From: Roseobacter sinensis
GTDB taxonomy: Bacteria > Pseudomonadota > Alphaproteobacteria > Rhodobacterales > Rhodobacteraceae
NCBI RefSeq assembly: GCF_025755255.1
Contig: NZ_JALIEB010000003.1
Span: 186,001-250,000, forward strand
Length of the DNA: 64,000 nt
Direction: 5' to 3'
Under the pieces are notes generated by a model. It made no database searches. It was not told the origin of the DNA and saw nothing but the letters and a program-made list of their open reading frames with translations. Shown in pieces: positions 36,979-40,821 of this stretch. The translations under genes and the position numbers were made by a program. Each line of letters starts with the position of its first letter. Position 1 is the stretch's first letter.

Positions 36979-37701
36979 ATGACCATACAGACCGAGATCA
37001 CGACGCCTGACGCGGCGACCATCGACACCCTCCCCTTTCGCACAGCCATCGACCGCGTGGCGACGCTGCGCACGCTGGTCATGCGCATGGCGCTGAAGGT
37101 CAGCCAGCTCGCTGCCGACCCCACGGAGGAGCAGCGCGCAGCCCTGAAAGAGGATGCGGAGGCCCAGGCCGGGACGCTGCGTCATACCCATGACGTGCTG
37201 TGCGGCAAGGCCATATTCGACGACCTGCCCGAGGCGCTGAGCGCCTGGCTTGCCACGGTCGCGCAGGACCAACGCGGTGGTCTCACGGCGATTGCCCGCA
37301 TGGCCGATATGACAGACGGCCTGCGCGACACTGCCGAGGAGGGCGACGCGGCGGAGCCCGACGGTCTCGACACCTATGTGGCTTACGCGCAGGGTGATTT
37401 TTTCGACGCGGTCACCGCGCTGACCGAGCACATCTGGGTCCAGGTCGACGACGGTCGCGCAACGCAACTCGAACGTGCGATGCAATCGGCCACGCGGCTT
37501 GGCGAAGGACTCAGCCGGCTTGAGCGCATCGGCAAATACGTCCGCTCCATGTCGATCAACGCCTCCGTCGAGGCCTCGCGCGCCGGTGAAGCGGGCAAGG
37601 GCCTCGCCATCATCGCCCAGGAGTTCAAGGTCCTGGCCGAAGAGGTGCAGGAGCTGACCTACTCCGCCCGCCAGGACATCGAGAGCATCGAGAACTCTTG
37701 A
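36979..37701 (+). CDS. small soluble MCP-like protein
   Basis: The 240-residue protein has no signal peptide or membrane helix. Its N-terminal two thirds are helical and of unknown family. The last 60 residues (SINASVEASRAGEAGKGLAI, then AQEFKVLAEEVQEL) match the signalling-hairpin tip of methyl-accepting chemotaxis proteins. It stops where the second half of the hairpin would begin to return. It could dock on a CheA/CheW array, or use the hairpin for dimerisation in another signalling role. It lies 54 bases after the response regulator and may share its transcript. Confidence 0.7.
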   Translation: MTIQTEITTPDAATIDTLPFRTAIDRVATLRTLVMRMALKVSQLAADPTEEQRAALKEDAEAQAGTLRHTHDVLCGKAIFDDLPEALSAWLATVAQDQRGGLTAIARMADMTDGLRDTAEEGDAAEPDGLDTYVAYAQGDFFDAVTALTEHIWVQVDDGRATQLERAMQSATRLGEGLSRLERIGKYVRSMSINASVEASRAGEAGKGLAIIAQEFKVLAEEVQELTYSARQDIESIENS

Positions 37702-37805
37702 GGCTGACTGCCTGATTTTCGCAAAATGTCGTCGAGGCGGCCTGTCGCGAAAGGAAGTGACGCAAATTTATTCTCCTGCGACATATTTTTTTGCGCAATA
37801 GGTCC

Positions 37806-37834
37806 TTGACGGCCCTAACCGCCACTTTTAAGGT
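37806..37834 (+). promoter_or_regulatory. candidate promoter of the ilv operon
   Basis: TTGACG (37806-37811) and TAAGGT (37829-37834) are 17 bases apart. Transcription would start near 37841, about 20 bases before the leader peptide. Confidence 0.45.
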
Positions 37835-37861
37835 CCCGGCAGCACGAAGGAGCCATCTGGC

Positions 37862-37909
37862 ATGACACCTCTAGTCGTCATCGTAGGACACACGCGCATG
37901 GGCCGGTAA
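37862..37909 (+). CDS. ilv leader peptide (15 residues)
   Basis: ATG at 37862 with AAGGAG 9 bases upstream opens the peptide MTPLVVIVGHTRMGR. Codons 4-8 read Leu-Val-Val-Ile-Val (CTA GTC GTC ATC GTA), the three branched-chain amino acids made by the operon. Such clustering in a short translated frame, followed by a terminator and then acetolactate synthase, is the classic layout of transcription attenuation by ribosome stalling. Confidence 0.85.
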   Translation: MTPLVVIVGHTRMGR

Positions 37910-37936
37910 CGGTAGACCATCCTCTGACCCATGCGC
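37894..37936 (+). promoter_or_regulatory. proposed antiterminator helix of the ilv attenuator
   Basis: GCGCATGGG (37894-37902, codons 11-14 of the leader) is perfectly complementary to CCCATGCGC (37928-37936). The downstream arm shares two bases with the 5' arm of the terminator, so the two helices exclude each other. A ribosome at the leader stop codon would cover the upstream arm; one stalled on codons 4-8 would leave it free. Confidence 0.6.
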
Positions 37937-37963
37937 CCCCGTCAAAATCGGGGGCTTTTTTTT
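37935..37963 (+). terminator. attenuator terminator before ilvI
   Basis: A 7-bp all-G/C stem (GCCCCCG / CGGGGGC) with a 7-base loop is followed by eight T residues. It stands between the leader peptide and ilvI, so it must be read through for expression. Confidence 0.92.
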
Positions 37964-38012
37964 GCGCAAACGGGAGCAAGCGGCCAGCACGGGCCACCAC
38001 GGAGTGAAAGAT

Positions 38013-39764
38013 ATGAAACGGCAGATGTCCGGAGCAAAAATGATTGTCCAGGCCTTGATCGATCAGGGCGTGGACACCGTCTTTGGCTACCCTGGGGGCG
38101 CTGTACTGCCGATCTACGACGAGGTCTTTCAGCAGAATGCCATCCGCCACATCCTCGTGCGCCACGAACAAGGTGCGGTGCATGCGGCCGAAGGTTATGC
38201 GCGCGCCACCGGTAAGCCGGGTGTTGTGCTCGTGACCTCCGGCCCGGGAGCGACGAATGCTGTGACCGGGCTGACCGACGCGCTGATGGATTCGATCCCG
38301 ATCATCGTTCTGACGGGCCAGGTGCCCACCTTCATGATCGGCTCCGATGCCTTTCAGGAGGCCGACACCGTTGGCATCACACGCCCCTGCACCAAGCACA
38401 ACTGGCTCGTGAAAGAGACCGATGCGCTCGCGGGCGTGATCCACGAGGCCTTCCACGTGGCGACCCATGGCCGCCCGGGGCCTGTGCTGGTCGACATCCC
38501 GAAGGACGTGCAGTTTGCGACCGGCACCTATCAACCGCCGAAGCCCTCGGTGTCGCACTACCAGCCGAAGCTGAAGGGCGACATGGAAGAGATCACGGAG
38601 CTGGTGGCCGCCATGGAGAAGGCCAAGAAGCCGATCTTCTACACCGGCGGCGGTGTGATCAACTCCGGCCCCGCGGCAAGCCAGCTGTTGCGCGAGTTGG
38701 TGAAGGCGACGGGCTTCCCGATCACGTCGACGCTCATGGGGCTCGGCTCCTACCCGGCCTCGGGGCAGAATTGGCTCGGCATGCTCGGCATGCACGGGCT
38801 CTACCAGGCCAATATGGCGATGCATGATTGCGACTTGCTGATCAACATCGGTGCGCGCTTCGACGACCGGATCACCGGGCGCATCGACGCCTTCAGCCCG
38901 AAATCGACCAAGGCGCATATCGACATCGACCCGTCCTCGATCAACAAGGTGATCAAGACCGATATCCCGATCGTCGGCGATGTGGGCCACGTGCTCGAAG
39001 ACGTGCTCAAGGTCTGGAAGTCGCGCGGACGCAAGACAAACTCGGAAGCACTGGCCAAATGGTGGGCGCAGATCGAGGAGTGGAAGACCGTCGACTGCCT
39101 GAAGTTCACCCAAAAGGGCAAGGTGATCAAACCGCAGCACGCGCTGGTCCGACTGGAAGAGCTGACGAAAAAGCACGACCGCTACATCTGCACCGAGGTG
39201 GGCCAGCACCAGATGTGGGCCGCCCAGTATCTCGGCTTCGAGGATCCCAACCGCTGGATGACCTCCGGTGGCCTCGGCACCATGGGCTATGGCTTCCCGG
39301 CCTCCATCGGTGTGCAGATCGCGCATCCGGATGCGCTGGTGATCAACGTGGCGGGCGAGGCCAGCTGGCTGATGAACATGCAGGAGATGGGCACCGCGGT
39401 GCAGTACCGCCTGCCGGTCAAACAGTTCATCCTCAACAACGAGCGCCTCGGCATGGTGCGCCAGTGGCAGGAGCTCTTGCATGGCGAGCGCTACTCCCAC
39501 AGCTGGTCCGACGCCCTGCCCGACTTCGTCAAGCTGGCCGAGGCCTTCGGGGCGAAAGGTATCCTCTGCTCCGACCCCGCTGATCTCGACGATGCGATCA
39601 TTGAAATGATCACCCACGACGGCCCGGTGATCTTCGACTGCCTGGTCGAGAAACACGAAAACTGCTTCCCGATGATCCCCTCCGGCAAGGCCCACAACGA
39701 GATGCTGCTCGGCGAAGCCGAGACGCAAGGGGTGATTGATAGCAAGGGGAGCGTGTTGGTGTAA
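38013..39764 (+). CDS. ilvI: acetolactate synthase large subunit
   Basis: The 583-residue thiamine-diphosphate enzyme condenses two pyruvates, or pyruvate with 2-oxobutyrate, in valine, leucine and isoleucine synthesis. It has the catalytic Glu in RHEQGAVHAAEGYARATG and the FAD-region motifs. The C-terminal cofactor motif reads V-A-G448-E449-A450-S ... N475-N476, where most relatives have GDG/GDA. I use the ATG at 38013 (GGAG 8 bases upstream). Expression is controlled by the upstream leader and terminator. The next gene, of different composition, overlaps its stop codon by one base (TAATG). Confidence 0.95.
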   Translation: MKRQMSGAKMIVQALIDQGVDTVFGYPGGAVLPIYDEVFQQNAIRHILVRHEQGAVHAAEGYARATGKPGVVLVTSGPGATNAVTGLTDALMDSIPIIVLTGQVPTFMIGSDAFQEADTVGITRPCTKHNWLVKETDALAGVIHEAFHVATHGRPGPVLVDIPKDVQFATGTYQPPKPSVSHYQPKLKGDMEEITELVAAMEKAKKPIFYTGGGVINSGPAASQLLRELVKATGFPITSTLMGLGSYPASGQNWLGMLGMHGLYQANMAMHDCDLLINIGARFDDRITGRIDAFSPKSTKAHIDIDPSSINKVIKTDIPIVGDVGHVLEDVLKVWKSRGRKTNSEALAKWWAQIEEWKTVDCLKFTQKGKVIKPQHALVRLEELTKKHDRYICTEVGQHQMWAAQYLGFEDPNRWMTSGGLGTMGYGFPASIGVQIAHPDALVINVAGEASWLMNMQEMGTAVQYRLPVKQFILNNERLGMVRQWQELLHGERYSHSWSDALPDFVKLAEAFGAKGILCSDPADLDDAIIEMITHDGPVIFDCLVEKHENCFPMIPSGKAHNEMLLGEAETQGVIDSKGSVLV

Positions 39765-40273
39765 TGGCCGTCCTCGCTTGGCTGCCAATAGTCTTGTCCT
39801 TACTTGCAATTACGTCTTCATTGGCACTCGGTATTTGGGCCGCGCGGGACAGGACCGCCAACTTTCGCATCTCCCGCGAACGCGAAATCTTCACTTGGGC
39901 GGAAAAGACGCTGGGACTTATACCGGATCTAAAGAGCGGCGAAGCTGAGTTGGTTGCTAGGGCACGCACTGCCCTCGCAGTTCAGATTGATATAGGGCGC
40001 TTGCTGTTTCCAAATGACCGAAGTACAGATTTTGGCAAGGACAAGCATCCACTGAACCGTGGATTCAGGAGCAAGGTCTTGGACCCGCTTGTAGCTATGC
40101 ACGAATACCGGCCACCCAAAGGCAAAACATCTGACGATCGCTTTGACACCTATGTGAAAGACTTCATTTTCGAAGTAAGCCAGCACTTCCCACCAGTGAA
40201 AACCAACACTTCGCCCGAATACCTCACCCAGTGGCACAATAAGACCAGAGGACCTTCCAAATGTCCCCCCTAA
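39764..40273 (+). CDS. membrane-anchored hypothetical protein inserted between ilvI and ilvH
   Basis: The 169-residue protein has an N-terminal membrane helix (LPIVLSLLAITSSLALGIW) and a soluble C-terminal part rich in charged residues (REREIFTWAEKTLGL, KTSDDRFDTYVKDFIFEVS). I recognise no family. Its start overlaps the ilvI stop by one base and its end overlaps the ilvH start by 13 bases. Codon use (TTA, ATA, CTA, AAA) is AT-richer than both neighbours, suggesting recent acquisition. In the usual arrangement the two synthase subunit genes are adjacent. Confidence 0.75.
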   Translation: MAVLAWLPIVLSLLAITSSLALGIWAARDRTANFRISREREIFTWAEKTLGLIPDLKSGEAELVARARTALAVQIDIGRLLFPNDRSTDFGKDKHPLNRGFRSKVLDPLVAMHEYRPPKGKTSDDRFDTYVKDFIFEVSQHFPPVKTNTSPEYLTQWHNKTRGPSKCPP

Positions 40274-40821
40274 AAATCAAAAAAGGCTCCTCCAGCCACT
40301 CCGCCTACAATCTGCGCCCCACGTTCTCCGATGTCGTCGAGCGGCATACGCTGGCGGTGCTGGTCGAGAACGAACCGGGGGTTCTAGCCCGCGTGATCGG
40401 GCTCTTCTCTGGGCGCGGCTACAACATCGACAGCTTGACCGTCGCCGAGGTCGATCACACCGGGCACCTCAGCCGCATCACCATCGTGACCTCGGGCACG
40501 CCGCAGGTGATCGAGCAGATCAAGGCGCAACTCGGACGCATCGTCTCGGTCCATGATGTGCATGATCTGACGGTCGAGGGCGCCAGCGTCGAGCGGGAGT
40601 TGGCGATGTTCAAGGTCGTGGGGCAAGGCGACAAGCGGGTCGAGGCGCTGCGGCTGGCCGACATCTTCCGTGCCAATGTCGTCGACAGCACGCTCGAAAG
40701 CTTTGTCTTCGAGATCACCGGCGCGCCGGACAAGATCGATGCCTTTGCAGACCTGATGCGCCCGCTGGGCCTCGCAGAGGTTGCGCGGACAGGCGTCGCT
40801 GCGCTGTCTCGCGGTGAATAG
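40261..40821 (+). CDS. ilvH: acetolactate synthase small (regulatory) subunit
   Basis: The 186-residue protein has an N-terminal ACT domain (HTLAVLVENEPGVLARVIG, FSGRGYNIDSLTVAEVDHTG) that binds valine for feedback inhibition, and the second ACT-like C-terminal domain. It activates the large subunit and makes it valine-sensitive. GAGGA lies 9 bases before the ATG. The start lies inside the end of the inserted hypothetical gene. It converges on the next gene with a 5-base gap. Confidence 0.94.
   Translation: MSPLKIKKGSSSHSAYNLRPTFSDVVERHTLAVLVENEPGVLARVIGLFSGRGYNIDSLTVAEVDHTGHLSRITIVTSGTPQVIEQIKAQLGRIVSVHDVHDLTVEGASVERELAMFKVVGQGDKRVEALRLADIFRANVVDSTLESFVFEITGAPDKIDAFADLMRPLGLAEVARTGVAALSRGE

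Follow-up and report, generated by a model that had tools for sequence, protein, structure and literature searches.

What controls transcription of ilvI, the gene for the large subunit of acetolactate synthase, in Roseobacter sinensis? The question is raised by the DNA just upstream of the gene in a window of 64,000 nucleotides of contig NZ_JALIEB010000003.1 (all coordinates below are those of the window, + strand). A preliminary description of this DNA proposed a ribosome-stalling attenuator, and the present analysis supports that proposal. The Leu/Val/Ile codons of a short leader frame, a complement that pairs with the end of this frame and an intrinsic terminator are kept together in relatives, and the element is very probably a ribosome-mediated transcription attenuator of ilvIH.

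Anatomy of the ilvI leader

A promoter-like pair, TTGACG (37806–37811) and TAAGGT (37829–37834) with a spacing of 17 nt, places the expected transcription start near 37841. A consensus promoter scan gave no report of the pair at 37806–37834, the second hexamer being too far from TATAAT. The Shine-Dalgarno sequence AAGGAG (37848–37853) is separated by 8 nt from the ATG at 37862, where the leader peptide frame MTPLVVIVGHTRMGR begins (37862–37909, stop codon TAA at 37907–37909). Its 15 codons read M T P L V V I V G H T R M G R, and the control codons Leu-Val-Val-Ile-Val are CTA GTC GTC ATC GTA (37871–37885).

The frame also contains the 5' arm of the proposed antiterminator helix, GCGCATGGG (37894–37902), which forms nine Watson-Crick pairs with the 3' arm CCCATGCGC (37928–37936). 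The final two bases of the 3' arm (37935–37936) belong at the same time to the stem of an intrinsic terminator at 37935–37963, which a terminator scan also identified. The 7-bp G+C stem is composed of the arms GCCCCCG (37935–37941) and CGGGGGC (37949–37955) and is followed by T8 (37956–37963). The frame, control codons, helix, terminator and two-base overlap had all been placed to the base in the preliminary description. That description considered the layout to be simple, with no further helix, and overlooked a conserved small hairpin, GCCG-GUAA-CGGU (37902–37913), which presents the stop codon in its loop.

In the proposed mechanism, transcription would begin just upstream of the 15-codon frame. 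When Leu, Val and Ile are plentiful, the ribosome would reach the stop codon and cover the helix arm inside the frame; with this arm covered, the terminator would form and transcription would stop ahead of ilvI. We infer translation of the leader, stalling, the order of folding and readthrough from the arrangement of these parts.

An arrangement of this kind was sought as a composite of a Shine-Dalgarno-like site, a frame of 8–40 codons with at least five consecutive Leu/Ile/Val codons, and a terminator 10–60 nt past the stop codon. The composite occurs once in the 64-kb window, both strands combined, and is absent from all 3000 dinucleotide shuffles of 37701–38020 and from each of 30 single-strand shuffles of the entire window. 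The RNA at 37884–37955 folds better than all 200 of its shuffles (z = −3.0).

Conservation and covariation among relatives

Relatives were sampled as 80 named loci and 100 ilvI places from 99 of 100 family genomes, with one genome per genus. Fixed rules, namely a frame with at least four consecutive Leu/Ile/Val codons and a terminator 22–46 nt past its stop codon, identified a leader at 73 of the 80 named loci and 78 of the 100 family places; a run of three such codons was present in 3 and 4 more, respectively. Among 151 leaders with a run of at least four, the frame is 15 codons long in 116 and the distance from stop codon to stem is most often 28 nt (93 leaders). The commonest form of the peptide is MxxLVVIVGxxRMGR. 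The control codons are kept across relatives and the neighbouring codons are variable.

A covariance model, referred to as R1, was calculated from 102 leaders; 115 had been chosen, and 13 of them, for the most part deviant, were dropped before alignment. At E ≤ 0.01, R1 matches 91 of the 100 family ilvI places; 58 of these places are rows of the model and so match by construction, and 33 of the 42 outside the model are matched as well. The genome of the window itself has a single R1 match. In a search of the phylum, 25 of 398 genomes were matched, of which 24 belong to the same family and one (G811) is considered below. Six of the family matches were cross-checked (G000, G046, G055, G075, G076 and G121), and all six are found immediately ahead of ilvI.

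In 152 of 153 leaders, a TTGAC box precedes the leader frame at about the distance seen in the window, compared with 19 of 153 for a control stretch, and the transcript is therefore expected to include the leader. The preliminary description had named two outcomes that would speak against its model. A transcript starting downstream of the leader is made unlikely by this box, and relatives that keep the terminator while losing the codons or the complement are not what was found.

The paired regions vary in a compensated manner. In the terminator stem, 99.6% of alignment cells are paired with both-side changes in five of seven pairs; in the helix, 93.4% of cells are paired with both-side changes in three of ten pairs. 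None of 500 shuffles scores as high as the whole structure. In 48 of the 102 leaders, a tenth helix pair (G-C) takes a third base of the terminator, and in 19 the outer terminator pair is weakened to G-U while the G required by the helix is kept. The two-base overlap given in the preliminary description is correct for the window and not universal, since about half of the relatives share three bases and some deep-branching relatives seem to share none.

Several compensated helix changes alter the peptide, from Arg to His in L015, from Arg to Cys in L165 and from Gly to Ala in L201 and L210. In L033 (2332–2462) and L179 (65–194), the frame stops ahead of the RMGR tail, yet arm, hairpin and terminator are all preserved in the RNA; these two leaders provide a natural test of RNA versus peptide. 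From the compensated tail changes and early stops, it is the RNA rather than the peptide tail that is kept.

The stop-codon hairpin was assessed with a swap test in 35 leaders that are deviant before the stop codon. With their own downstream sequence, 26 scored above the mean of swapped sequences and 9 below, the clear cases being L168, L176, L196 and L202. An extension of the hairpin to CCAT (37917–37920), a candidate rival partner of 37898–37901 that would act as an anti-antiterminator, was unsupported, with 65.9% of cells paired and no both-side change.

The choice of control codons is strongly biased. CTA accounts for 48.7% of Leu control codons (n = 191) compared with 2.4% of 3486 Leu codons in ilvI at the 80 named loci, and GTA for 51.2% of Val control codons (n = 420) compared with 5.3% in ilvI genes; both counts come from relatives that are mutually dependent. 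Rare CTA codons also serve as control codons in the leu attenuator of Salmonella (PMC1183508).

Folding, counter-evidence and rival explanations

The preliminary description offered a two-state model in which a ribosome at the stop codon permits the terminator and a ribosome stalled on codons 4–8 frees the helix to take two bases from it. Folding of the leaders with fixed ribosome positions agrees with the direction of this model. A ribosome placed at the stop codon leaves the lowest two pairs of the terminator formed in 152 of 152 leaders, with a median probability of 0.99; placing it at the first control codon lowers the median to 0.53. At equilibrium, these two pairs are only half-opened, and the upper terminator pairs are formed at every ribosome position tested. 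The direction fits stalling, and the size of the effect is too small for a firm switch. In an unconstrained fold, the Shine-Dalgarno region pairs with the 3' arm of the terminator; this pairing was set aside as it requires bases that are still inside the polymerase.

A number of results count against the attenuator as described. A ribosome at the first control codon leaves the two lowest pairs above 0.5 in 84 of 152 leaders; when it stands at the last control codon, where its footprint extends over the start of the arm, they are still formed in 146 of 152. The theft of two bases is nearly neutral in energy, and the switch is weak at equilibrium. The pair counts given above are biased towards the structure by the omission of the 13 mostly deviant leaders. 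Of 17 leaders whose 5' arm deviates, no more than 7 prefer their own 3' arm as a partner over every one of 76 swapped arms; the fixed window used in this test did not include the arm in at least five leaders (L033, L168, L179, L196 and L203). The helix was called 1–4 nt short of the stem in seven deep-branching members (L151, L166, L168, L187, L196, L203 and L209). As the glycine codon after the control run is equally biased (GGA in 86 of 106), the preference for codons ending in A (CTA, GTA, GGA) may serve more than the sensing of amino acids. R1 had no match at nine of the 100 family places (L098, L196, L197, L202, L204, L206, L207, L208 and L209); leader-like parts are visible by eye in L196, L202, L204 and L209 and in none of the other five. 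The upstream region of ilvI in the identical, Nereida-like L034 and L098 and in the A+T-rich L206–L208 is without such a leader and may be regarded as a set of natural losses.

One rival explanation retains attenuation and gives the helix another role. The helix and the stop-codon hairpin would constitute one long hairpin of the 1:2 type (pause or anti-antiterminator) beside the terminator, and another process would decide between termination and readthrough. In the minimum-energy fold of the window, helix and terminator do coexist side by side, trading boundary bases only, and the helix of the RF02502 type (discussed below) ends 6–8 nt ahead of the stem in the five cases examined. A helix that forms on stalling and does not hinder termination would, however, give no induction by starvation, and inspection by eye found no other partner for the terminator arms. 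In the closest experimental case, ilvBNC of Corynebacterium glutamicum, where the bases of the two hairpins are adjacent and overlap only by GCC, mutations at the base of the terminator raise expression 7–8 fold (PMC11857589). The long-hairpin explanation is considered unlikely. It is distinctly improbable that the leader RNA or peptide also acts in trans, in the manner of the Sinorhizobium trp leader, with the RMGR tail as a peptide signal. A precedent exists in peTrpL (PMC10117765), the tail is kept in most leaders, and a related RNA is catalogued as a small RNA (sRNA) under RF02502; the changes in the tail of L015, L165, L201 and L210 are nevertheless matched in the 3' arm of the helix, and L033 and L179 keep the arm despite stopping before the tail.

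Explanations that do away with ribosome sensing fare worse. A structured leader ahead of a biosynthetic gene might bind a ligand or a protein, as a riboswitch, a T-box or the target of an RNA-binding protein. The run of control codons is, however, the most constant coding feature. At the gathering score, Rfam identified only tRNAs in the window, and a search of 37700–38050 up to E = 10 listed only sRNA families, the best being RF02502, with no ilvB-OMG, T-box or riboswitch match (the presence of an ilvB-OMG model in the library was unchecked). Binding of this kind is therefore judged to be very improbable. It is scarcely credible that the element is no more than the terminator of the gene before it, or some unrelated sRNA, and that the short frame is incidental. 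Intergenic terminators are common and the match of the window to RF02502 falls under its cut-off; 91 of 100 ilvI places, however, keep the frame together with the control codons, helix, terminator and promoter box, which already disfavors this explanation, and shuffling did not produce the composite.

Gene context, related leaders and known attenuators

The attenuator would act on ilvI at 38013–39764 (NF006581, 1136 bits, cut-off 974), and ilvH, for the small subunit of acetolactate synthase, lies at 40261–40821. A frame of 169 amino acids with no NCBIfam match lies between the two genes (39764–40273, + strand). The gene upstream of the leader (36979–37701, + strand) resembles the signalling end of a chemotaxis receptor and is below every family cut-off.

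Leaders that resemble the one in the window were also found outside the family. Of 385 genomes of the class searched with R1, 16 were matched, five from the same family and 11 from ten other families. In all 11 of the latter (L274, L275 and L282–L290), the next gene downstream encodes a Bcr/CflA-type major facilitator superfamily (MFS) transporter; TIGR00710 is the best NCBIfam match for each of the 11 proteins and is above its cut-off in nine. These leaders contain mostly valine runs (such as MHILIVVVGERRLDR and MTVTTVVVGAWRLDR), the stop-codon hairpin, CATGCGCC and a terminator. By the rules of the present analysis, helix and terminator share 3–6 bases in 10 of the 11. The weakest cases are L275 and L290, which have poor control runs.

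A further connection is provided by RF02502 ("Rhizobiales sRNA Atu_C8"), which the window matches with 26.2 bits (E = 0.0033 in a 351-base scan), under the gathering cut-off of 50; no match was listed for L272, L143 and L153. In family f107, six RF02502 members above the cut-off (L260 and L266–L270) all contain a Val-rich frame and precede the same type of transporter. R1 matches the transporter-linked RF02502 members at E = 0.005–0.07 only. The leader of G811 (L318), MKTTLILVVGMRMGKAV, is both a member of RF02502 (101 bits) and a match to R1 (39.2 bits, E = 1.1e-6), and it precedes an ilvI with 70% identity to that of the window and an NF006581 score above the cut-off. RF02502 shares with the window a Val-rich frame ending in ...VVVGxRMGxxx or alike, a helix of CGCATGGG and CCCATGCG around a stop-codon hairpin, and a terminator. 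It differs in the distance of 6–8 nt from helix to stem and in the six members that precede the Bcr/CflA-type transporter gene instead of ilvI. These features suggest that RF02502 is a leader attenuator and not a free sRNA; the catalogued RNA would then be the terminated transcript of the leader.

The evidence may be combined into a broader reading that we consider evenly balanced. There may be one inherited, portable ribosome-sensing attenuator module in Alphaproteobacteria that precedes ilvIH in the Rhodobacteraceae and in family f174 and, elsewhere, one Bcr/CflA-type MFS transporter gene, with RF02502 as its terminated transcript. The parts held in common would be branched-chain or valine codons, a helix arm coding R-M-G or alike, the CCG-GUAA-CGG stop hairpin, and CATGCGCC against the terminator base. 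Given the small or absent overlap, the module would be a "boundary" attenuator that acts by competition and crowding at the base of the terminator, not by capture of its arm. If the module reading is true, the transporter is predicted to be linked to branched-chain amino acids or slowed ribosomes.

Searches for either kind of leader elsewhere were negative. In eight of eight genomes tried from the same family, transporter homologues are present (43–55% identity) and the 330 nt before each best one is without a leader. None of 76 loci upstream of ilvI in other alphaproteobacterial families matches R1 at E ≤ 0.1 (the 94-base L223 is not included), lists of Leu/Ile/Val-rich frames from ilvI of other families gave no convincing case by eye, and the exact pattern GCGCATGGG...CCCATGCGC has 0 matches in G206. 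The null result in other families conflicts with published reports on Caulobacter and Sinorhizobium; a sample of one genome per family may lack those genera, or the rules may miss their design.

Enterobacterial attenuators have an antiterminator that claims a large part of the terminator arm, compared with 2–3 bases in the leaders described here. The enterobacterial trp, his, leu and ilv attenuators have in common with it the control codons and the terminator/antiterminator logic, together with the rare CTA codons seen in Salmonella leu (PMC1183508). As a class, the element appears to be of a kind already known in alphaproteobacteria. Attenuation of the Caulobacter ilv operon is in print (PMC4117421), and Vitreschak et al. 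2004 is named as the source of both an ilvIH element of Sinorhizobium (PMC2573895) and an alphaproteobacterial ilvB leader peptide (PMC1273637). Likened by description, these ilvIH/ilvBN attenuators share the operon, the bacterial class, tandem branched-chain codons and a terminator with the window. Among the matches listed in a literature search, no paper named ilvI attenuation in Rhodobacter or Roseobacter, and none was found that links RF02502 or CflA genes to attenuation.

The small-overlap layout has a precedent in the "fast" attenuator (ilvB-II motif) of C. glutamicum ilvBNC, reported in 2025 (PMC11857589). Both systems appear to combine a 15-residue peptide, valine-rich in C. glutamicum (MTIIRLVVVTARRLP), with hairpins that overlap at their boundary and an acetohydroxyacid synthase operon. 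The shared bases are GCC in C. glutamicum, GC in the window and GCC in 48 of 102 relatives. The C. glutamicum leader is leaderless, whereas in the window AAGGAG precedes the ATG by 8 nt and a promoter box lies 50 nt upstream. C. glutamicum also has a longer anti-antiterminator; in the window, the stop-codon hairpin is supported and the CCAT extension is not.

With this layout in mind, the ilvI leader would represent a second, unrelated lineage for the small-overlap design of C. glutamicum. RF02502, which Rfam lists as an sRNA, is suggested to be a leader attenuator, and a gene for a Bcr/CflA-type transporter may be connected with the sensing of amino acids or ribosomes. Accumulation of the terminated leader, should it occur, would open the possibility of an additional action in trans like that reported for the trp leader of Sinorhizobium. 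For an ecologically large marine family, control of branched-chain amino acid synthesis may be read from sequence alone, in a layout that is conserved and can be tested base by base.
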